This document shows positions 1 through 18,531 of a stretch of 64,000 nucleotides of DNA, one piece after another. Below the pieces are notes generated by a model that saw nothing but the letters and a program-made list of their open reading frames with translations, was not told the origin of the DNA and ran no database searches. The translations under genes were made by a program, and so were the position numbers. Within the stretch, counting starts at the first letter, position 1. Each line of letters starts with the position of its first letter. This DNA comes from Streptomyces sp. HUAS 15-9 (GTDB lineage Bacteria; Actinomycetota; Actinomycetes; Streptomycetales; Streptomycetaceae), in NCBI RefSeq assembly GCF_025642155.1, contig NZ_CP106798.1, positions 62,001 to 126,000 on the forward strand, read 5' to 3'.

Positions 1-967
1 GCCAGGTTGACCGTGATCAGGGACGAGCTACCCCCGCGGGCGCGGGGACGACGAGCCAGAGGATGTGGGGGATGGGGAGGCGGGCGAGCTACCCCCGCGG
101 GCGCGGGGACGACGAGGCCGCCGAGCACGTCGACGCCATCGAACGGGAGCTACCCCCGCGGGCGCGGGGACGACTCATGGAACGCGCGCTGGAACACCTG
201 GCGCTGGGAGCTACCCCCGCGGGCGCGGGGACGACTCTGCCCATACGCCGACACCGCACCTTCGAAACGAGCTACCCCCGCGGGCGCGGGGACGACACAT
301 CCTGTGCCTCACCCGCGATCCCAAGTGGGGAGCTACCCCCGCGGGCGCGGGGACGACGCCGCGGGGGTCATCGGCGTGCCGCCGGCCGTGGAGCTACCCC
401 CGCGGGCGCGGGGACGACGATCGCGTAGAGAGTGCGGTCGCTCGACGCCAGGAGCTACCCCCGCGGGCGCGGGGACGACTGTCCCTCCCACCTGTCAAAG
501 CCTCCGTAGCGGGAGCTACCCCCGCGGGCGCGGGGACGACCACCCACGCCTTGCGCTCCTCGGCGAGTCGGCCGAGCTACCCCCGCGGGCGCGGGGACGA
601 CCTCTTCTCCTGGTCTTCCAGGTGCGCGATGACCGAGCTACCCCCGCGGGCGCGGGGACGACGTCGTCCTCCAGCCGCTCGTAGAGGGCGTCGAGGAGCT
701 ACCCCCGCGGGCGCGGGGACGACCGCAACCCACCTTTACCCGCTGGCCGATCTGGCGAGCTACCCCCGCGGGCGCGGGGACGACGGGGGCGTCGGGGACG
801 TGCAGCCGGTAGATGTAGAGCTACCCCCGCGGGCGCGGGGACGACTGTTCCTCGGGGTTGCGTAGGTGTTCCTCCGGGGAGCTACCCCCGCGGGCGCGGG
901 GACGACATCTCGGCGACGGCCTGCTGCCGGTTCTCCGCCGAGCTACCCCCGCGGGCGCGGGGACGAC
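1..967 (-). CRISPR. CRISPR array 1, type I-E, 16 intact repeats
   Basis: Sixteen identical 28-nt repeats start at 25 and then every 61 bp to the last at 940-967, so all 15 spacers are 33 nt. Bases 1-24 look like part of another spacer, so the array runs off the left edge. Read on the minus strand the repeat begins GTCGTCCCCGCG, folds as a CCCCGC/GCGGGG stem and ends GTAGCTC, the usual type I-E orientation. Transcription is therefore leftward, in line with the cas operon, with the newest spacer next to cas2. The spacer base following the repeat handle is G or C in 14 of 15 spacers. Perfect repeat identity indicates a functional or recently active array. No spacer origin could be identified by eye. 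Confidence 0.98.
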
Positions 968-5310: not shown

Positions 5311-6480
5311 TCAGGTGCTGGGCGGCGTGGTGTCGGTGCGGAAGTCGCGGTCCCACCGGTTGCGGATACGGGACTGCTCGTCCGGTCGTTGCGGGTCGTC
5401 CCAGAGCTGAAGCGCCCGATGAAGGGCGTCGTAGTCGAGACCGATGCCCGTCCGGCGCAGCAGCGGCACGAGACCGCGCAGGTGCTGGGCCAGTTCCCCG
5501 GCATCGAGGGAGGTGAGCAGGGCGCCGAACCTGCGCTCGATCGCCGTGCTGTCGGCGTCCTTGGCCTTGGCAAGGAGCAGGCGGCAAGCACTCCCGGGAC
5601 TGGCACCGGGTGAGTGCACCGTCGTGTCCCGGCCCTGCTGGTGCACGGCGAAGACGGTGAGGGCGGCGTGCTCAGCCGCCAGAGAGCGCGTGAGGGCTCC
5701 CTTGTTCCGCAGCGGGGTGCTGATCAGGGTGCGGTAGAAGGGCCACATCGCGGGCACCGTGCCGGCCTCACGGCCCGCCCCGGAGCGCAGCGCCGCCAGC
5801 TGCGCACCCGCCTCGGCCAGACAGGAATCGAAGCCCGCCCAGTACAAGCAGGCTTCGGCCGTGTCGGACCATAAGGCCTGGCCGCTGTCGTCACACGCAG
5901 GGTCGGTGTATTGCAGGCCCCAGGCCCGCAACACCCTGCCCTGCTCCGGTGTCGTCCAGTTCCGCAGATCACGGTAGAGGCGGGTGTAGTCCAGGCCACT
6001 GCCCGCCTGCCGCAGCAGAGGGACCAGCCCGCGCAGGTGCTGCACGAGCTCCTCGAGGTCCCGCGCGGTCGCGGCAGCCATCAGACGGCGCTCTGCGGCA
6101 CTGCCGGACAGCAGGGTCCGGCGCAGATGCCGCACGGCCGTGCCGAGTCCGACTCCGGGCCGATGCACCGGGTCCGCCCCAGCACTCTGGTGCAGACCGA
6201 ACAGCGTGAGCGCGGCCTGCTCAGCCCGGTAGGAGTCGGGCAGCTGCTGCGCACTCCGGTGGTCGTCGGTGAGCTCCACACGATGCAGGTGCCGGATGCC
6301 GGGCACAGTGCCGGGCTCGCAGCCCAGCCCGTCACGCGCCGCTCGCAGACCGCGTTCCGCCCACGCCGGCACCGGCTGCCGCCTGCTCTGCCGCTGCGTG
6401 CGCGACGCCGCAGCCTGAGCGAACTCCTCCCAGAAGTAAGGGCGGTAGCGTCGGCTGGCAAGGGTTGTCGACGTGCTCAT
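5311..6480 (-). CDS. casB: Tandem-duplicated Cse2 (CasB), a fused Cse2-Cse2 Cascade subunit
   Basis: Cse2 is normally about 160-200 aa and two copies bind along the Cascade belly. This protein is 389 aa and contains the family twice. Copy 1 covers about residues 45-190 and copy 2 about 229-378, offset by roughly 183-185 residues. Matching blocks are GCEPGTVP / GREAGTVP, AEQAALTLFGLHQ / AEHAALTVFAVHQ and LVQHLRGLVPLLRQ / LAQHLRGLVPLLRR, each followed by G-x-GLDY. Residues 191-228 form a linker. I chose the ATG at 6480 because it overlaps the cse1 stop by 4 bp; the longer reading frame upstream only shadows cse1. An in-frame TTA codon is at residue 203, in the linker. Confidence 0.9.
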   Translation of the reverse strand: MSTSTTLASRRYRPYFWEEFAQAAASRTQRQSRRQPVPAWAERGLRAARDGLGCEPGTVPGIRHLHRVELTDDHRSAQQLPDSYRAEQAALTLFGLHQSAGADPVHRPGVGLGTAVRHLRRTLLSGSAAERRLMAAATARDLEELVQHLRGLVPLLRQAGSGLDYTRLYRDLRNWTTPEQGRVLRAWGLQYTDPACDDSGQALWSDTAEACLYWAGFDSCLAEAGAQLAALRSGAGREAGTVPAMWPFYRTLISTPLRNKGALTRSLAAEHAALTVFAVHQQGRDTTVHSPGASPGSACRLLLAKAKDADSTAIERRFGALLTSLDAGELAQHLRGLVPLLRRTGIGLDYDALHRALQLWDDPQRPDEQSRIRNRWDRDFRTDTTPPST

Positions 6481-8156
6481 GCGGCACTCGCCTCCTTCGC
6501 GGCGCGCGCCTCGGCGGCCCGTCGAAGAATCTCGTTGAGCCGCATGCGGAACACTCCGACGCCCTTTCCGCTGCGGAAGACAACGTCCTTGCCGTTCACC
6601 TTCTCCGTGCGCCCGACCACGGCCCGCGCCGGCACAGCCGCCAGCAGCACATCCGCCTCCCGCACCGCCGCCTCGAACAACGTCAGCTCCCACGCCTGCT
6701 GGCCGCGTTCGAGCAGGTCGTAGTCCTCGCCGATGCTGCGCAAGCCCGCCAGCAGCCGCCGCATGCTGGTGTCCACCGCGTGCAGCAGACGCACCGAGGG
6801 CCGATCACCCCTGTCCCGGGGCAGCGGCTCCCCGCCCGACGCCCGCCGCAGATCGGCGTGCAGGCCGTCGAGGGCCCGGCCGGTCCGGTCGGCCTGCTCG
6901 GCACACTCCAGCAGCGCCAGGCGCAGCCAGTCGTCCGCGGCGACCAGGGAGACGACAGGCAGCGGGAGAGTGTCGGTGATGGCGTTCTCCACCACCGCGG
7001 ACTGGTTGCCGTACTCCAGGGCCGAAATCTCCACGCCCAGCGGGTAGTCGGCCGGCAGCACTTCGTCGGCCCGCAGGTCACCGATCTGCCGCAGCAGCGC
7101 GGAGGTGTAGGGGCCGTCGCTGTCCTGGGAAAGGGCGAGGGCCAGCAGGGCGCCGAGTCCCTGCCAGGCCGCCCGCCCCGACATGTGGCGGCGCGGCCGG
7201 CGCGGGGGCTGCCCCGGCTTCGGCTTGGCTGTGTGGTTCCAGGCGGTGTGCGGCTCCGTCTCGGGCGTCTGGGCCAGCCGGTCCCCGGCACTGACGACCA
7301 CCTGCCGCACCCGCACACCCTGCTTGGTCTCAGAGGCGACCAGCCGGATCCTGCGGGACTGAAACGTCAGCAGGTCCAGCAGACCCCCGGCAGGGCGCGT
7401 GGACCACTCGGGGCCGGCGGGCGACTTCCAGCCGAGCGATGCCGGGCGCTCATCCCAGGCCCACTGCGGACGGTCGCCGGCCTCCAGGCCATCGGGCAGG
7501 ACCGGCGTGTTCAGCAGCAGCGTCTCGAACAGGGTCCGGCCCGTCGGGACAATCACGCCGAGCTGCCCGAGCGGGCCCGTGGGATTCCCCGTCGTCTTTC
7601 CCGCCTTGGCCTGCGAGTCGCCGACCGCCCCGGTCTTGATGGCAGCGGTGTCCCAGCACTGGGCGTGCAGCAACCACAGCACCGCCTGCGCCGCAGCGAG
7701 ATCCAGGTGGTCGGCCTCGCTGAACGCGCTGAACAGCGGCACGTTGTTCCCCGACGCCACGGACGGCACAAGCAACGTGGACGGCTTGACCTCTCCGTTG
7801 AGCGCTGTCAGACCCGCGGCCTGCCCAAAAGGCCGCTCAACGTCGAAGAGCCGGAACCGGTCGCCGTAGCGGTCGGTCAGGTATGTCGTGAGACGGCCGG
7901 CCTCCTCGGGCGAGAACTGGCCGCGCTCGAACCTCTGCTGCCATTCCCGCCGTGACCGCGGTGCCCCGAGCGCGTCCAGGAGCACCGGCAGCAGCATCTG
8001 CCGCAGCACAGCGGGCTGCATCGTCGCCACCGGCACATCCAGCCTGCGGATCCTGTGCGCCTCGGTCAGCGTCCGCAGCAGCCCGAGATTTTCTGTCGTG
8101 CCGTCCAGCGTGACAGCGGCTAACCAGCCTTCGCCAACAAGATCGACCTTTTCCAC
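6477..8156 (-). CDS. casA: Cse1 (CasA), Cascade large subunit
   Basis: Cse1, 559 aa, recognises the PAM and recruits Cas3. The family is clear from the N-terminal W-L-A-A-V-T-L-D-G and GLLRTLTEAHRIRRL, the RFRLFDVERPFGQ segment, and PLGQLGVIVPTGRTLFETLLLN. The C-terminal four-helix region follows from about residue 380. The start is GTG with GGGGAAA just upstream; an ATG 11 bp further up is out of frame. Codon 12 is TTA (GEGWL), so translation would need the bldA-type leucine tRNA. It overlaps cse2 by 4 bp and has its own upstream region of 311 bp containing a crRNA-like element. Confidence 0.95.
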   Translation of the reverse strand: MEKVDLVGEGWLAAVTLDGTTENLGLLRTLTEAHRIRRLDVPVATMQPAVLRQMLLPVLLDALGAPRSRREWQQRFERGQFSPEEAGRLTTYLTDRYGDRFRLFDVERPFGQAAGLTALNGEVKPSTLLVPSVASGNNVPLFSAFSEADHLDLAAAQAVLWLLHAQCWDTAAIKTGAVGDSQAKAGKTTGNPTGPLGQLGVIVPTGRTLFETLLLNTPVLPDGLEAGDRPQWAWDERPASLGWKSPAGPEWSTRPAGGLLDLLTFQSRRIRLVASETKQGVRVRQVVVSAGDRLAQTPETEPHTAWNHTAKPKPGQPPRRPRRHMSGRAAWQGLGALLALALSQDSDGPYTSALLRQIGDLRADEVLPADYPLGVEISALEYGNQSAVVENAITDTLPLPVVSLVAADDWLRLALLECAEQADRTGRALDGLHADLRRASGGEPLPRDRGDRPSVRLLHAVDTSMRRLLAGLRSIGEDYDLLERGQQAWELTLFEAAVREADVLLAAVPARAVVGRTEKVNGKDVVFRSGKGVGVFRMRLNEILRRAAEARAAKEASAA

Positions 8157-8374
8157 TTTCCCCTGCCATTACAAAGGCGCTGCTCCGCCGGAGCGCACGC
8201 GTCACCTCTGCCCAACACACCTTTTTGAAAGGGAAGTTGGACGTCTGGGCAACTCGCCCAACGGTGGCACTGAATGTTCATCACTTGCAACCGGTTCGGG
8301 CACAATTACGCGTCCAAGTCCCGAAAGCGCCCACGCTGCAGGCGCCAGGTACGCTCCGGGCAGCGCGGCGCCCC
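8157..8374 (-). promoter_or_regulatory. cse1 upstream region with seed match to a crRNA-like element
   Basis: This gap should contain the promoter of the cse1-cas2 operon. Two elements are visible. TGGGC-aactc-GCCCA at 8246-8260 is an inverted repeat that could be an operator. GTTCATCACTT at 8276-8286 on the plus strand, preceded by AAT, matches the pseudo-spacer at 8403-8413 (GTTCACCACTT) at 10 of 11 positions, with the mismatch at position 6. The site is 120 bp upstream of the GTG. Exact promoter hexamers could not be assigned. CACAAT at 8301-8306 could be a -10 box for rightward transcription of the element. Confidence 0.55.
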
Positions 8375-8444
8375 GTCTCCCCGGCCAGCCGGGGGTGTTC
8401 CCGTTCACCACTTCACGTCGTCCCCGCGCCCGCGGGGCACCCGG
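8375..8444 (+). ncRNA. Mini-CRISPR / crRNA-like RNA candidate (CreR-like) between cas3 and cse1
   Basis: Two degenerate repeats lie close together on the plus strand. The first, 8375-8401, folds as CCCCGG-CCAG-CCGGGG and ends GGGGGTGTTCC, like a type I-E 5' handle. The second, 8417-8444, is identical to the array repeat over its first 21 nt, including the full Cas6e hairpin, but its handle part is replaced by CACCCGG. Between them are only 15 nt (C then GTTCACCACTTCAC) instead of 33. This is the layout of Cas-regulating crRNA-like RNAs: pseudo-repeat, short pseudo-spacer, pseudo-repeat, located beside the Cascade promoter. Transcription and Cas6e cleavage are inferred. Confidence 0.75.
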
Positions 8445-8467
8445 AACCGACGGCGGCGCCGCGCCCC

Positions 8468-11389
8468 CTATACCTGCTCCACGACCAGGCCCAGCACCTC
8501 GTCGTACCCCACCCGCTGCCCACCGACCACCGCCCAGCCGTCCGGCTCCAGGACCAGCGCACGCGCATACCGCAGCCACGGATGGCTAGCCCAGCCGGGC
8601 AATACCGTCAGCGACCGGTCAGCATCCTCGGAAAGACGCGCCGGCAGCCGCACCGTGCCCCCGAGCAGCCGCTCCACCACGACCTCATCCGCCACCTCGC
8701 CGTGCACACCGAGCCTCGTCCCGTCCAGCGCCGTGTAGCCACCCGCAACACGCCGCACGACGACCGCTTCCACGCTCCGCGTGCCATCACGTACCACCGC
8801 GTCGAGGTCCTCCTCGGAATGTGCCCGGCTGCCGGCGTAGTGCAGACCCTCCAGCGTCGCCACCGCCCACTCACGCGGCCGCGTCAGCAGGTAGCCCTCG
8901 GCGTTCTTCTCTCGCTGGGCCTCCTTGGCCTGCCACTCCTCCCGCGCGGCCCGCTCCCCCCACCCGGCCGGACACACTTCGCTCTCGCCGTACGCACGAG
9001 CAACCAGACTCGGGACATCCGCCGGGATGCTCCAGACACCACCCGGCTCCCCGCCGCTGGACGGCGCCTGCCCCTGACACAGCGGACCCGCCACTTCCAT
9101 CACCAAGGCCGCCGACCGCAGCAGCAGCCACTCCCCGTAAATGGCCTTCGACGCAGGCAGGAAACGAGGCCGCCCGTCCCTGCCGCCCGCCACGCCCGTC
9201 ACCAGCACCCTCGGCACCGCATGCCCCACAGGCCTCGGCGTGCCCGCATGCCGGTGCAGCCGACCAATCCGCTGCAGCAGCAGGTCCACCGGCGCCAGAT
9301 CCGTGATCAGCACATCGGCATCCACGTCGAACGACTGCTCTGCGAGCTGGGTGGCAACCACCACCATGCGCCCGGGCCGCTCCTCCCCGGCACACGCCCC
9401 CATCAGGCGCAGACACCGCTCCGTGCGCTCAGCGCGATGCGTCGCGCACAGCCGGCCATGGAGCAGGTGCAGCTCACCGTCGAAACCGCCGGCCCGCAGC
9501 GCCTCGTGAATCGCCTGGGCCCGGTCCACCTGGTTCACCACAACGAGGACGACTCCACCATCTGCCGCCGCCTCTTCCGCGGCCGCGGCGACCACCGCCC
9601 CCTCCCGGTCCGTATCCGGCAGCCACCGGATGTGCACCGGCTCCGAAGCCCTCCACGAAGGCACAGCACGAAGCGAACTGTGAACTTCCGGCTTCCCGTC
9701 CACCGCGAACGCCGACGTGACACACGGGTATCCGCCCGGCTCCGGCACCGGATGCACCACATCCGCCGACCCCACAGCACCGACGAGATAGGCATCAACG
9801 AACGCCTGCCGCTGCGCCGGCGGCAGCGTCGCCGACAGGAGCACCACCGGCACTCCGGCCTGCCCCAGCCAGCGCAGGGCCTCCAGCAGGAACTGCCGCA
9901 TGTAGATGTCTGCGGCATGGACCTCGTCGACGATCACGACTTTCCCTGCAAGCCCGGCGAACCGCAGCATGACGTGCCGGGTCCGCGTCGCCGCATACAG
10001 CAGGTGGTCCACCGTCCCCACGGCAAACGCCGTCAGCAGACCCCGCTTGGCACCCAGAAACCACAGCGGCGGCCCACCACGCTCCGCCACCTCTTCCGTA
10101 CCGGCCAGTCGCTCCCGCCCGGCCATGCCGTACTCGTCGTCCTCATCGATCGCCCCGTACACGTCCCAGGGATCGGCCCCTGCCCCGTGCTGTTCCTCCG
10201 CACCGGCTGACGCCTCCGCCTCCCAGATCTGCCGCCAGCGCGGGTTGAAACGCCGCTTGCCGTGCACCAGCGCTACCTGCGATTCCAGCTCCGGACCGAA
10301 CGAACGCACCCACTCCAGCACCTGCCCATACATGGGATCACTGGTCGCCTGCGTCGGCATCGCCACGAACACACCGTCCATACCGAACCGAGCCGCCAGC
10401 ACCTCCGCGGCAGCCAACGCCGCCTTCGTCTTCCCCTCCCCCATCGGCGCCTCGACCACCAACACCCCCGGCACCGGCACCGACCACGCCCGCTCCACCA
10501 GCTCCACCTGCGACGCCCGAGGCAACACCCCCAACCTCACCGTCAACGGCGCCAGCGAACTCTCAGGCAACGGCAGGTCACGCCAGCCACCCCTCAGGCC
10601 CAGACGCCCCCAGGCCCCCTCGGCACGACGAGAGGCCCCAGCCGGCGAAACATCCCCCGCATCGGACAGCCCCGGAAAGTGCCTGCTGTCACTCGCGATC
10701 CAGTCCGCCATCACGATCAGACCCGACAGAGCCAACTGCTCAGCCTTGCTCAGCGCCCCCACGGGGCGAGCCGACCGTAAGTCCTCAAGACCCACAGCAC
10801 GCGTGAACACGTCGATCACGCTCCGCTGAGCCTCAGCCCAGCCTGCTCCCCTGCCCTGCACTTCCGGATGCCCAGGCCGCAGGCTCCCTATCGACGGAAA
10901 CGTTCCATGGTGCCCGGCCACCAGCGGCCACACCCAGGCAGCCGCATCCGCGTCCCCCCACTCCGCCCGCAGCCGTGGCAACAGCATCGCCGCGCCCGCC
11001 ACGTCGTGACGCCACCGCCGCCTCCTGTCGATCGGTAGCCGTCCCCACAACAAGCCCGCCGCACGCACCGGCGCCGCTTCAGCTGGATCAACCGACTGGA
11101 AAGCTGGACACGCCTTACCGCAGTCGTGAATGCCGCATATCCACATCAGCCACGCGCGCCCCCGCCCACCGCTGATCTCGTCAAGGCGCCGACGGAGCGA
11201 CCGGGACAGATACCGATCCCACATCAGCCCAGCCACAGCAGCTGTATCCAGCAGATGTCCCAGAAGCAGATGAGTCCGGCCACCATTCCGAGCCGCAGAC
11301 TTCCCCCACAACCGCGACACCCTCGCGACCACCTCAGCCGCGACCCCCAGCGACCGCGTTAACTCGACGATCGACCGTTCGTCCTCCAC
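8468..11389 (-). CDS. cas3: Cas3 helicase-nuclease, type I-E
   Basis: Cas3 is recruited by target-bound Cascade to unwind and degrade DNA. An N-terminal HD nuclease domain is visible (GHLLDTAAVAG, GIHDCGKACPAFQ, VAGHHGTFP), followed by an SF2 helicase: Walker A APMGEGKTK, DEVH box VVIVDEVHAAD, motif III SATLPP and motif VI LLLQRIGRLHRH. The frame is open to 11452, but I prefer GTG at 11389 because GGAGG lies 6 nt upstream; this gives about 973 aa. Two in-frame TTA codons occur, at 11360-11362 (codon 10) and 10778-10780. It is separated from cse1 by a 311-bp gap, so it likely has separate control. Confidence 0.95.
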   Translation of the reverse strand: MEDERSIVELTRSLGVAAEVVARVSRLWGKSAARNGGRTHLLLGHLLDTAAVAGLMWDRYLSRSLRRRLDEISGGRGRAWLMWICGIHDCGKACPAFQSVDPAEAAPVRAAGLLWGRLPIDRRRRWRHDVAGAAMLLPRLRAEWGDADAAAWVWPLVAGHHGTFPSIGSLRPGHPEVQGRGAGWAEAQRSVIDVFTRAVGLEDLRSARPVGALSKAEQLALSGLIVMADWIASDSRHFPGLSDAGDVSPAGASRRAEGAWGRLGLRGGWRDLPLPESSLAPLTVRLGVLPRASQVELVERAWSVPVPGVLVVEAPMGEGKTKAALAAAEVLAARFGMDGVFVAMPTQATSDPMYGQVLEWVRSFGPELESQVALVHGKRRFNPRWRQIWEAEASAGAEEQHGAGADPWDVYGAIDEDDEYGMAGRERLAGTEEVAERGGPPLWFLGAKRGLLTAFAVGTVDHLLYAATRTRHVMLRFAGLAGKVVIVDEVHAADIYMRQFLLEALRWLGQAGVPVVLLSATLPPAQRQAFVDAYLVGAVGSADVVHPVPEPGGYPCVTSAFAVDGKPEVHSSLRAVPSWRASEPVHIRWLPDTDREGAVVAAAAEEAAADGGVVLVVVNQVDRAQAIHEALRAGGFDGELHLLHGRLCATHRAERTERCLRLMGACAGEERPGRMVVVATQLAEQSFDVDADVLITDLAPVDLLLQRIGRLHRHAGTPRPVGHAVPRVLVTGVAGGRDGRPRFLPASKAIYGEWLLLRSAALVMEVAGPLCQGQAPSSGGEPGGVWSIPADVPSLVARAYGESEVCPAGWGERAAREEWQAKEAQREKNAEGYLLTRPREWAVATLEGLHYAGSRAHSEEDLDAVVRDGTRSVEAVVVRRVAGGYTALDGTRLGVHGEVADEVVVERLLGGTVRLPARLSEDADRSLTVLPGWASHPWLRYARALVLEPDGWAVVGGQRVGYDEVLGLVVEQV

Positions 11390-11531
11390 CGACCACCTCC
11401 ATAGACCCCACCCTGAGTTGAGCCGCACCATAGACGGCCCCACTGACAACACCTCAATCGCCGAATCCCGAACTGCGAAGCAGGTGAATGAGAATCGGCC
11501 TCGTTGCTAGCATCGCCGCAGCACCCGAAGT
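11390..11531. promoter_or_regulatory. Divergent region: cas3 promoter and leader of array 2
   Basis: The region lies between the cas3 start (minus strand) and the first repeat of array 2 (plus strand). The sequence just before the first repeat ends CACCCGAAGT and abuts GTCGTCC, the same GAAGT junction as in the array 1 leader. This supports a leader here and rightward transcription of array 2. It contains the cas3 ribosome binding site (GGAGG, 11396-11400). No further degenerate repeat is found 61 bp upstream. Promoter boxes are not obvious. Confidence 0.5.
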
Positions 11532-12392
11532 GTCGTCCCCGCGAGCCGGGGGTAGCTCGATGGCCGGGATGCCGTGCAGCGTGTACATCTCGTCGTCCCC
11601 GCGAGCCCGGGGGTAGCTCGATGACCATGGAAGAATTCGCCGGCAGCCTGTCGTCGTCCCCGCACGCGCGGGGGCAGCTCATCAGCAGGGCATACGGCCT
11701 GGTTCCCTTGCGGGTCGTCCCCGTGCCCGGGGGTAGCTCCTGCTGGCTCATGGCGTACTGGTCGGCCGGGAGGCCGTCCCCGCACGCACAGGGGTCCCGT
11801 CCCGGGGCATGGCCGACTGCGTAGGAGTCGTCGTCCCCGCGCCAGCGGGGGTAGCTCGCGGAGCAACTGGCCCTGTCGGTCTGATCGTGGCCGTCCCCGC
11901 GTCCGCCTCGCAGGGTGAGGCCAACGTGGAGCTGGCGGAATTGTCGTCCCCGCACGCGCGGGGGTAGCTCCCGGTCCCATTCGGAGTGGCGGGCTATGTC
12001 GTCGTCCCCGCGCGTGCGGGGGTAGCTCGCTCGACGACCCCTCAGGGTCGCTGAGTGCCGCGTCGTCCCCGCGCCCGCGGGGGTAGCTCCTGATAGGACG
12101 CATAGGCCATGGCGGAGACTGCGTCGTCCCCGCGCCCGCGGGGGTAGCTCTCCAGGATCTCCAGCCAGCCCAGGTGCCCGTCCGTCGTCCGCGCCCGCGG
12201 GGGTAGCTCGCCTGCGTTGTGGAGCAACGTGAACGCTCTGGCGTCGTCCCCGCGCGTGCGGGGGTAGCTCGTTGGTCCCGCTCCAGTTGGAGAGGATCAG
12301 GTCGTCGTCCCCGCGCCCGCGGGGGTAGCTCGTACGGGGTCGTGCAAACCGCTGGCCTGCGCATGTCGTCCCCGCGCCCGCGGGGGTAGCTC
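11532..12392 (+). CRISPR. CRISPR array 2, type I-E, 15 repeats, decayed at the leader side
   Basis: Repeats start at 11532, 11592, 11653, 11714, 11773, 11830, 11890, 11943, 12001, 12062, 12123, 12184, 12243, 12304 and 12365. On the plus strand they read GTCGTCCCCGCG...GGGGGTAGCTC, so the array points away from cas3 and opposite to array 1. Repeats 1-7 are degenerate: repeat 4 is 26 nt, repeat 5 has lost GTAGCTC, and repeat 7 keeps only its 5' part. Repeats 8-15 are near-consensus, with loop variants (CACGCGCG, CGCGTGCG) and one 2-nt deletion at 12184. Several hairpins are too damaged for efficient Cas6e cutting. Decay near the presumed leader is unusual. Confidence 0.95.
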
Positions 12393-17418: not shown

Positions 17419-18531
17419 ATGCGCATCCCGGATGAGACTCGTGACCAACTCGCCGTGAAGTTCGCGGTGTTGTTCCCACATCTGGACGAGCGGCAGCGAC
17501 GGCTGTTGATGGCCGCAGAGGCCCGTGTCCTGGGACACGGTGGTGTTCGGGCCGTCGCGCGAGCGGCCTCGGTGAGTGAGACCACGGTCCGCAAGGGCGT
17601 GTTCGAGTTGGAGGCCGGCGAGGAACCTCTGGGGCGGGTGCGGCGGCCGGGCGGAGGCCGCAAGAGGGTCGCAGATCTCGATCCGGGGCTCCGGCCGGCA
17701 CTGCTGGCGCTTGTCGAGCCGGATGAGCGCGGTGATCCGATGTCGCCGCTGCGGTGGACGGTGAAGTCGACCCGCACGCTGGCGCGGGAGCTGGCCCGGA
17801 CCGGGCACAAAGTCAGTGCGGACACCGTCGCGGACCTGCTGCGGGAGGAAGGCTTCAGTCTGCAGGCCAACGCCAAGACCATCGAGGGAAGCCAACATCC
17901 GGACCGGGATGCCCAGTTCCGCTATCTCAACGAGCAGGCCCGCGATCACAGGGACACCGGCCAGCCGGTGATCAGCGTGGACACCAAGAAGAAGGAGCTC
18001 GTCGGCGAGTTCAAGAACAACGGACGCCAATGGCGGCCTGCGGCTGATCCGATGCCGGTGAACGTCCATGACTTCGCCGACCCCCAGCTGGGCAAGGCCG
18101 TCCCGTACGGGATCTACGATCTCGCGGCGAACACCGGCTGGGTCAACGTGGGCACCGATCACGACACCGCCGCGTTCGCAGTGGAATCGATCCGCCGCTG
18201 GTGGTCCGGCCAGGGCCGGGCCGCCTACCCGCAGGCGACACGACTGCTCATCACCGCCGACGCGGGCGGCTCGAACGGCTACCGCACCCGGGCCTGGAAG
18301 CTCGAACTCGCCCGGCTCGCGGCCGAAACAGGACTGACGATCACCGTTTGCCACCTGCCGCCGGGCACATCGAAGTGGAACAAGATCGAGCATCGGCTCT
18401 TCTCGCACATCACCCTGAACTGGCGCGGCCGCCCGCTGACCAGTCACGAAGTCATCGTCCAGTCCATCGCCGCGACCACCACCCGCACCGGCCTGCGCGT
18501 GAGCGCCGCACTCGACACCAACATCTATTAG
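17419..18531 (+). pseudogene. ISAzo13 family transposase, 3' truncated
   Basis: The 370-residue frame begins MRIPDETRDQLAVKF and contains the N-terminal helix-turn-helix GHGGVRAVARAASVSETTVRKG, the G-x-x-RVRRPGGGRKR linker, and DDE core segments VISVDTKKKELVG, LITADAGGSNGYR and GTSKWNKIEHRLFS. The family normally continues for about 50 more residues after ALDT. Here it ends NIY at the edge of the next IS (18529), so the tail was removed by that insertion. Its left end abuts the outer IS. Confidence 0.8.

Follow-up and report, generated by a model that had tools for sequence, protein, structure and literature searches.

A mini-CRISPR element between cas3 and cse1

We analysed a stretch of 64,000 nucleotides (nt) from the 9.6 Mb genome of Streptomyces sp. 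HUAS 15-9 (positions 62001-126000 of contig NZ_CP106798.1; hereafter the window), which carries on its minus strand the cas locus of a type I-E system of clustered regularly interspaced short palindromic repeats (CRISPR). Open frames run from cas3 to cas1, with cse2, cas7, cas5, cas6e and cas1 following cse1 in that order (NCBIfam), and the best named relatives of the window Cse1 are from Streptomyces. The gap between cas3 and cse1 holds a small CRISPR-like element whose guide matches a site in front of cse1, with the following parts:

8375-8401, plus strand: pseudo-repeat R1, GTCTCCCCGGCCAGCCGGGGGTGTTCC, reaching 8402 with its handle
8379-8394, plus strand: R1 hairpin, CCCCGG-CCAG-CCGGGG
8395-8402, plus strand: 5' handle of R1, of CRISPR RNA (crRNA) type, GTGTTCCC
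8402-8416, plus strand: pseudo-spacer of 15 nt, including the base equivalent to the protospacer-adjacent motif (PAM); one of the length classes 15, 21, 27 and 33
8403-8413, plus strand: guide seed GTTCACCACTT, positions 1-11 with position 6 free; covaries with the target in 58 distinct pairs
8417-8444, plus strand: pseudo-repeat R2, with a Cas6e-type hairpin at 8422-8437 (CCCCGC-GCCC-GCGGGG) and a last 7 nt that are not conserved
8276-8286, plus strand: target (protospacer) GTTCATCACTT, in the cse1 promoter region
8273-8275, plus strand: PAM, AAT
8468-11452, minus strand: cas3 (TIGR01587 and TIGR01596, NCBIfam), upstream of the element
6477-8156, minus strand: cse1/cas8e (TIGR02547, NCBIfam), at the head of the operon that the element is predicted to repress

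A CreR, the cas-regulating RNA reportedly described by Liu et al. in 2023 in Cell Host Microbe, has a spacer flanked by pseudo-repeats that lies in the cas locus and not in an array, and the element shares this layout. An active array would have the repeats of the local array and 33-nt spacers, and the element has neither. R2 equals the array repeat of the window, GTCGTCCCCGCGCCCGCGGGGGTAGCTC, over its first 21 nt and differs from it at six of the last 7 (6 mismatches over 28 without gaps), R1 has more than 7 mismatches in the same ungapped comparison, and the pseudo-spacer is 18 nt, or three 6-nt steps, shorter than the array spacers. A first-pass annotation, made by a model from the sequence alone, had placed these repeats and this spacer and claimed the 21-nt identity of R2; all of its coordinates and letters were correct. 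No Rfam family was found in 8100-8500 at E values up to 1. The whole element folds no better than its shuffles (z = -0.64); the case for the window hairpins rests on conservation.

A PAM-flanked seed match upstream of cse1

Guide and target agree at 10 of 11 positions, the sole mismatch being position 6, and pairing ends after position 11. This match, its mismatch, the adjacent AAT and the abrupt stop had all been described in the first-pass annotation, and each withstood a letter-by-letter check. The sixth base is flipped out in Cascade, and in E. coli a 5-bp seed suffices for Cascade binding while interference requires >18 bp (excerpts of PMC5904413); a match that stops after 11 is, by that measure, too short for interference, as in a CreR.

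The annotation had also held the match to be beyond chance, a claim borne out by resampling. With the guide given, 20,000 first-order Markov resamples of the 8157-8374 sequence produced matches of 9/10 or better next to an AA PAM at a frequency of 0.0002, and none at 10/10. AANGTTCANCACTT is found at a single genomic site, the 8276 target. The only full genome match is therefore upstream of cse1, and the guide does not target a toxin-gene promoter as that of a CreTA system would.

Guide and target covary across relatives

Relatives were gathered by Cse1 (24 loci, then 30, then further loci). The first set comprised 51 cse1-upstream regions from 47 loci (four being second copies), with an R1 handle in 44 of the regions (41 loci). 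When no PAM condition was imposed, 38 of these 44 paired at 10/10 and four at 9/10, and all 42 matches, from 39 of the 41 loci, stood beside AAN. One locus (L037) reaches 10/10 after a one-base register shift, another (L039) has four handle-like repeats 61 nt apart and is an array, and a third (L020), without an R1 handle in the first scan, was later found to pair.

An extended scan of loci L001-L240, in which AA was required, returned 67 rows. Register duplicates (L012, L023 twice, L036) and rows with a target distance outside 70-160 (L092, L099, L104, L142, L165) were dropped and L153 and L169 were set aside by hand, the spacers of these seven non-duplicate rows being 21, 33, 22, 33, 34, 32 and 33; with six loci added that the hairpin pattern had missed, and four duplicates removed, 58 distinct pairs remained. 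Matches among the 58 at positions 1 to 11 number 58, 55, 58, 58, 58, 14 (position 6), 58, 57, 56, 58 and 58, and at the positions beyond 11 they number 9, 13, 8, 12 and 14. There are 47 distinct seeds, of which 41 pair with their own target at 10/10 and six at 9/10, and in 2,162 comparisons of a guide with a foreign promoter none reached 10 and 41 reached 9. Pairing is therefore kept while the letters change, and from the per-position counts its extent is two five-base segments around the flipped-out base. Where positions 10-11 overlap the candidate -35 box, the promoter itself accounts for part of their conservation.

As a control for the PAM, we took ten-base matches of handle-plus-hairpin guides in L001-L184, copies of one locus being counted again; those not beside a repeat hairpin were preceded by AA in 47 of 50 cases. 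An earlier tally that included repeats had given AA 48, CC 37, TC 13, CG 7, GG 3 and six others once each, and all its CC and TC matches lay beside repeat hairpins. Pairs at 9/10 and 10/10 in L039/L216 and L215 were false, arising from repeats of arrays next to cse1, and a 10/10 pair in L185 and L223, repeat-like and without a hairpin, was rejected.

Eleven plasmid loci from named records, collected later, served as a hold-out, with the hairpin pattern slightly widened and the seed and PAM rule unchanged. Ten matched at 9 or 10 with AAN (seven at 10, three at 9), and one (L259) gave no pair. Because L258 and L213 of the first set turned out to be one locus, a fair tally is nine hits among ten new loci; two hold-out members, L252 and L253, are close kin. 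Covariation in relatives had been named in the first-pass annotation as a check on its reading, and both the 58 pairs and the nine new loci pass it. Selection on the pairing, a criterion for a CreR that we add ourselves, is thus seen.

The target lies within the predicted cse1 core promoter

Candidate promoter boxes were taken from 26 aligned loci of the window's clade, read on the cse1 strand. The aligned order is TTGnAA, 18 bp holding PAM and target, and TGn-[AC]AnnnT, which suggests that the boxes are the -35 and extended -10 of cse1. The predicted boxes of the window are:

8285-8290, minus strand: candidate cse1 -35, TTGCAA; TTGnAA stands there in 17 of the 26 clade loci
8261-8269, minus strand: candidate extended -10 of cse1, TGC-CACCGT, 18 bp from the -35; TGnnAnnnT stands there in 21 of 26
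8350-8355, plus strand: candidate -10 of the element's divergent promoter, TACGCT; conserved as gTAc.CT upstream of R1

On the cse1 strand the -35 would occupy 8290-8285, the spacer 8284-8267 and the -10 8266-8261, and the target is inside this putative core promoter. A PAM-flanked seed match in the promoter of an effector gene is a further property of CreRs, the promoter here being recognised by conserved boxes. The gTAc.CT motif is likely the -10 of the element. A simple terminator scan found none in the window gap.

The element keeps its own handle

R1 ends in GTGTTCC in 24 of the 26 clade loci, the others being L002 (GTGCTCC) and L037 (GTTGCTC). In the window this handle differs from that of the array, GTAGCTC, and the same holds in all 18 clade loci with an array in reach (the window included), where the commonest array ending is GTAGCTC, GTTGCTC, GTAGTTC, GTTGTCC, GTAGTCC, GTAGCCC or GTGGTTC. 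Since GTGTTCC persists in 24 of 26 loci while array endings vary, the element handle is kept apart from the arrays, and since it differs from the array handle the element is not simply a decayed array unit. One possible reason is a weaker grip by Cas5e, such that array crRNAs win. A 5' handle unlike those of the local arrays is seemingly new.

An R2 stem of at least 5 bp is present in 56 of the 58 loci and an R1 stem of that length in 42 (loops of 3-10 allowed). The good R1 stems vary in sequence, for example CCCCGC/GCGGGG, CCCAGC/GCTGGG and CCCTGC/GCAGGG. Elements without an R1 stem of 5 bp, L043, L044, L048, L212 and L213 among them, keep handle and guide.

Spacer lengths fall in 6-nt steps

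Measured from the end of R1 to the start of R2, the 58 spacers are of 15 (18 loci), 16 (1), 21 (14), 22 (4), 27 (5), 33 (14) and 34 nt (2). Taken modulo 6, 51 leave 3, seven leave 4 and none leaves another residue, whereas the guide-to-target distance, used as a control, spreads over all six residues (9, 14, 4, 7, 15 and 9). Exceptions to the two residues are L153 (10/10, spacer 32), which had been set aside, and E. coli (32). A Cse1 tree, built by a quick method with 11 of 55 inner branches open, calls for no fewer than 12 switches among the four classes, or 17 among exact lengths. Assuming independence and any residue to be free, the odds that all 12 class changes fall in two of six residues are about 2 in a million. 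All nine new hold-out spacers (15, 27, 27, 15, 15, 15, 15, 33 and 21) again leave 3 modulo 6.

Each Cas7 covers 6 nt, and on a plain reading the stepwise guides would be accommodated by Cascades that lack entire Cas7 units. Altered Cascade stoichiometry has been reported for redesigned spacers (excerpts of PMC10989794). Natural guides in 6-nt steps are not reported in the excerpts consulted or among the literature matches listed; the length steps are seemingly new, their novelty unproven.

A similar layout in the E. coli K-12 cas3-casA gap

E. coli K-12 (L242, NC_000913.3) was scanned as a control with the same method, and two features were found:

L242:4485-4563, strand opposite to casA: CreR-like element in the cas3-casA gap
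L242:4354-4367: target, with an AAG PAM and 9 of 10 seed positions, near the predicted casA promoter

Read opposite to casA, the gap holds UCCCUACUUAAGUAGGGA (a 7-bp hairpin), ATAAACCG, which we take to be the end of the E. coli repeat, TTATTGGTCTT and then another hairpin, also of 7 bp. When folded individually, the two hairpins score better than their own shuffles (z = -3.9 and -2.7). AAG-TTATTCGTTTT lies 154 nt nearer casA, matches at 9 of 10 positions outside position 6 and adjoins TTGCAG-17-TATTGT, in our reading the casA promoter. The exact sequence GGATAAACCG is expected 0.01 times in the K-12 9 kb, and among 3,000 resampled K-12 gaps the handle (with at most one mismatch) together with the seed never arose, the seed alone arising in 0.5%. 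A simple promoter scan of the gap gave one plus-strand promoter-like site, against 3.6 in shuffles.

At least 80% of the K-12 gap is carried by 1,106 of 5,426 E. coli genomes. In L243 and L260-L263, R1, handle, seed, R2 and target are unchanged, with two guide changes at positions 12 and 28, and in P276M the target is kept within a rewritten stretch; because the strains vary so little, they offer no covariation test. Five gamma-proteobacterial loci collected by CasA similarity (L244-L248) nowhere show the full layout. Annotated cas3 and casA abut or overlap in L247 and L248, cas5 and casA overlap in L246, in L244 some 30 nt separate the open frame at casA from the one before it, and L245 has no annotation.

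Divergent anti-Pcas transcription in this region yields an RNA of 150-200 nt of unknown significance (excerpts of PMC7074321), and its role is described as unknown (excerpts of PMC10011333). We propose that anti-Pcas is a CreR, whose RNA would begin AUAAACCG then UUAUUGG, at L242 4503. The occurrence of this layout in K-12 is seemingly new.

Proposed function and alternative explanations

We put the probability that the window element is a type I-E CreR limiting its own cas operon at about 0.9. The first-pass annotation had read the element as an autorepressor, and covariation, the PAM and a target inside the predicted core promoter support that reading. We postulate that transcription from a rightward promoter yields a short RNA carrying both pseudo-repeats, which Cas6e would cut after the R2 hairpin and after R1 to give a crRNA-like RNA with the handle GUGUUCCC and a 14-nt guide. 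Once in Cascade, probably a shortened form containing about three Cas7, this RNA would direct the complex to read AAT and pair with 8276-8286 over two 5-bp segments in the cse1 core promoter. The bound Cascade would block RNA polymerase, the pairing being presumably too short to license Cas3. Cascade would in this way hold down its own production, and the brake would be released when ordinary crRNAs or phage inhibitors take up the available Cascade.

Several observations count against an autorepressor. In E. coli, seed-only Cascade binding was without effect on transcription (Cooper et al., excerpts of PMC5904413), and partial R-loops were argued there to lose to RNA polymerase. Both exact promoter boxes occur together in only 16 of the 26 clade loci, and a simple sigma-70 promoter scan calls no site in the window gap. 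Sixteen of the 58 loci have no 5-bp R1 stem, and some of the other 42 stems are weak or long-looped; 5' processing must therefore differ in the 16, where the 5' end of the RNA may be set by the transcription start or by another nuclease. Nor is the element universal, as 7 of the 51 regions (6 of 47 loci) have no R1 handle, most collected loci of more distant I-E clades gave no pair, and no convincing CreR emerged when 26 unpaired loci were rescanned under relaxed settings.

The inertness of seed-only binding in E. coli (excerpts of PMC5904413) speaks for a CreR that is loaded into Cascade and mainly trims the crRNA pool or tethers Cascade, with little repression of the promoter. We regard this as improbable, since most clade loci keep the target between promoter-like boxes, and repression is reported for both CreRs and CreA (excerpts of PMC13131331 and PMC10989794). 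Still less probable is a pair of operators bound by a regulatory protein. Such a protein would be suited by two near-identical 11-mers that flank a divergent promoter region at a distance of about 127 bp, but the target copy is preceded by AA, whereas the guide copy has a crRNA-type handle before it and a hairpin after it; position 6 is free; and both copies change fast together, whereas a protein holds its operator. We give the least credence of all to a decayed two-repeat array remnant with a chance match to the promoter. R2 does match the array repeat exactly over 21 nt, and uneven repeats and spacing are also seen in the array at 11592-12392. However, chance is excluded by the resampling, the 58-pair covariation and the hold-out, GTGTTCC is kept in 24 of 26 loci while array handles drift, and conservation of the pairing refutes a remnant as the full account.

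Beyond the window element as a CreR, we give somewhat better than even odds to a wider proposal: that I-E autorepressor guides are trimmed by whole Cas7 units (33, 27, 21, 15) to form natural mini-Cascades that repress without calling Cas3, and that the class reaches K-12, where anti-Pcas would make a guide against the casA promoter.

Relation to known systems

The CreR class is already known, and the window element belongs to it. CreRs repress cas genes of types I-B, I-E and V-A (excerpts of PMC13131331), and the CreR work is also cited in PMC12737573 and PMC12948488 (excerpts). The first-pass annotation had likened the element to Cas-regulating RNAs of other CRISPR types; the likeness to CreR holds, and type I-E is itself among the reported types. 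Both are mini-CRISPR RNAs with a partial match to a cas promoter and autorepression by the native effector, proposed in the present case. The window element differs in its 15-nt spacer, its relatives in 6-nt length steps and its handle unlike the local arrays, in a comparison with CreRs as these excerpts describe them.

CreA, of the haloarchaeal I-B toxin-antitoxin system CreTA, is likewise crRNA-like and uses an 11-bp seed to repress a promoter (excerpts of PMC10989794), although the window target is the cse1 promoter and not that of a toxin gene. RNA anti-CRISPRs (Racr) share repeat mimics outside arrays (excerpts of PMC10651486), whereas the window element combines two repeats with a guide whose matched target sits within the cas locus. 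The K-12 anti-Pcas region, with a divergent transcript between cas3 and casA, likewise has a guide set between R1 and R2 hairpins and a match next to a PAM, but with 9 of 10 seed positions and a near full-length spacer (32).

A guess about a single locus has thus become a well-supported and testable regulatory RNA. The covariation provides a natural rule for binding a promoter without cutting it (AAN, five pairs, a free base, five pairs), and the finding suggests a source of compact I-E repressors for gene control. The length classes predict that short Cascades, with fewer Cas7 subunits, occur in cells. For anti-Pcas, the K-12 layout offers a concrete function to test in a laboratory strain where type I-E is best understood, and it would alter the reading of cas silencing there (H-NS, LeuO, CRP). 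Three points seemingly go beyond the known CreR class and merit following: the step-wise lengths, the handle distinct from the arrays and the K-12 element.

Other layouts and the arrays of the window

In three of the dropped loci, from another I-E clade of the same genus (L092 and L099 at 10/10, L104 at 9/10), a handle, guide and hairpin lie upstream of cse1 with the target 343-361 nt away and, in each case, AAC as the PAM; this may be a second CreR layout. Many Cse1 matches sit in a single open frame of about 1,150-2,300 amino acids. These are probably cas3-cse1 fusions, as known from the same genus, which would leave no promoter gap. An open-frame measure of the cas3-cse1 gap was useless in this GC-rich DNA.

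The window has two arrays:

25-967, minus strand: CRISPR array 1, with 16 identical repeats
11592-12392, plus strand: CRISPR array 2, beside cas3, with uneven repeats and irregular spacing, unlike 25-967

In the array at 25-967 the first base after the repeat, in crRNA sense, is C in 8 of 16 cases, G in 7 and T in 1, a distribution compatible with a PAM of AA plus a loose third base. A phage protospacer search with the window arrays gave seven records for one array and none for the other, and no PAM was derived from the matches. Six of the seven are Gordonia phages (84-88% identity over 40-45 bases) and mostly cover the repeat. The seventh aligns window 101-138 with 17529-17566 of Streptomyces phage Alderaan (MT711975.1), in its tape measure gene; this weak match (86.8% over 38 bases, E = 0.02, about 25 bases of one spacer) could be a diverged protospacer.
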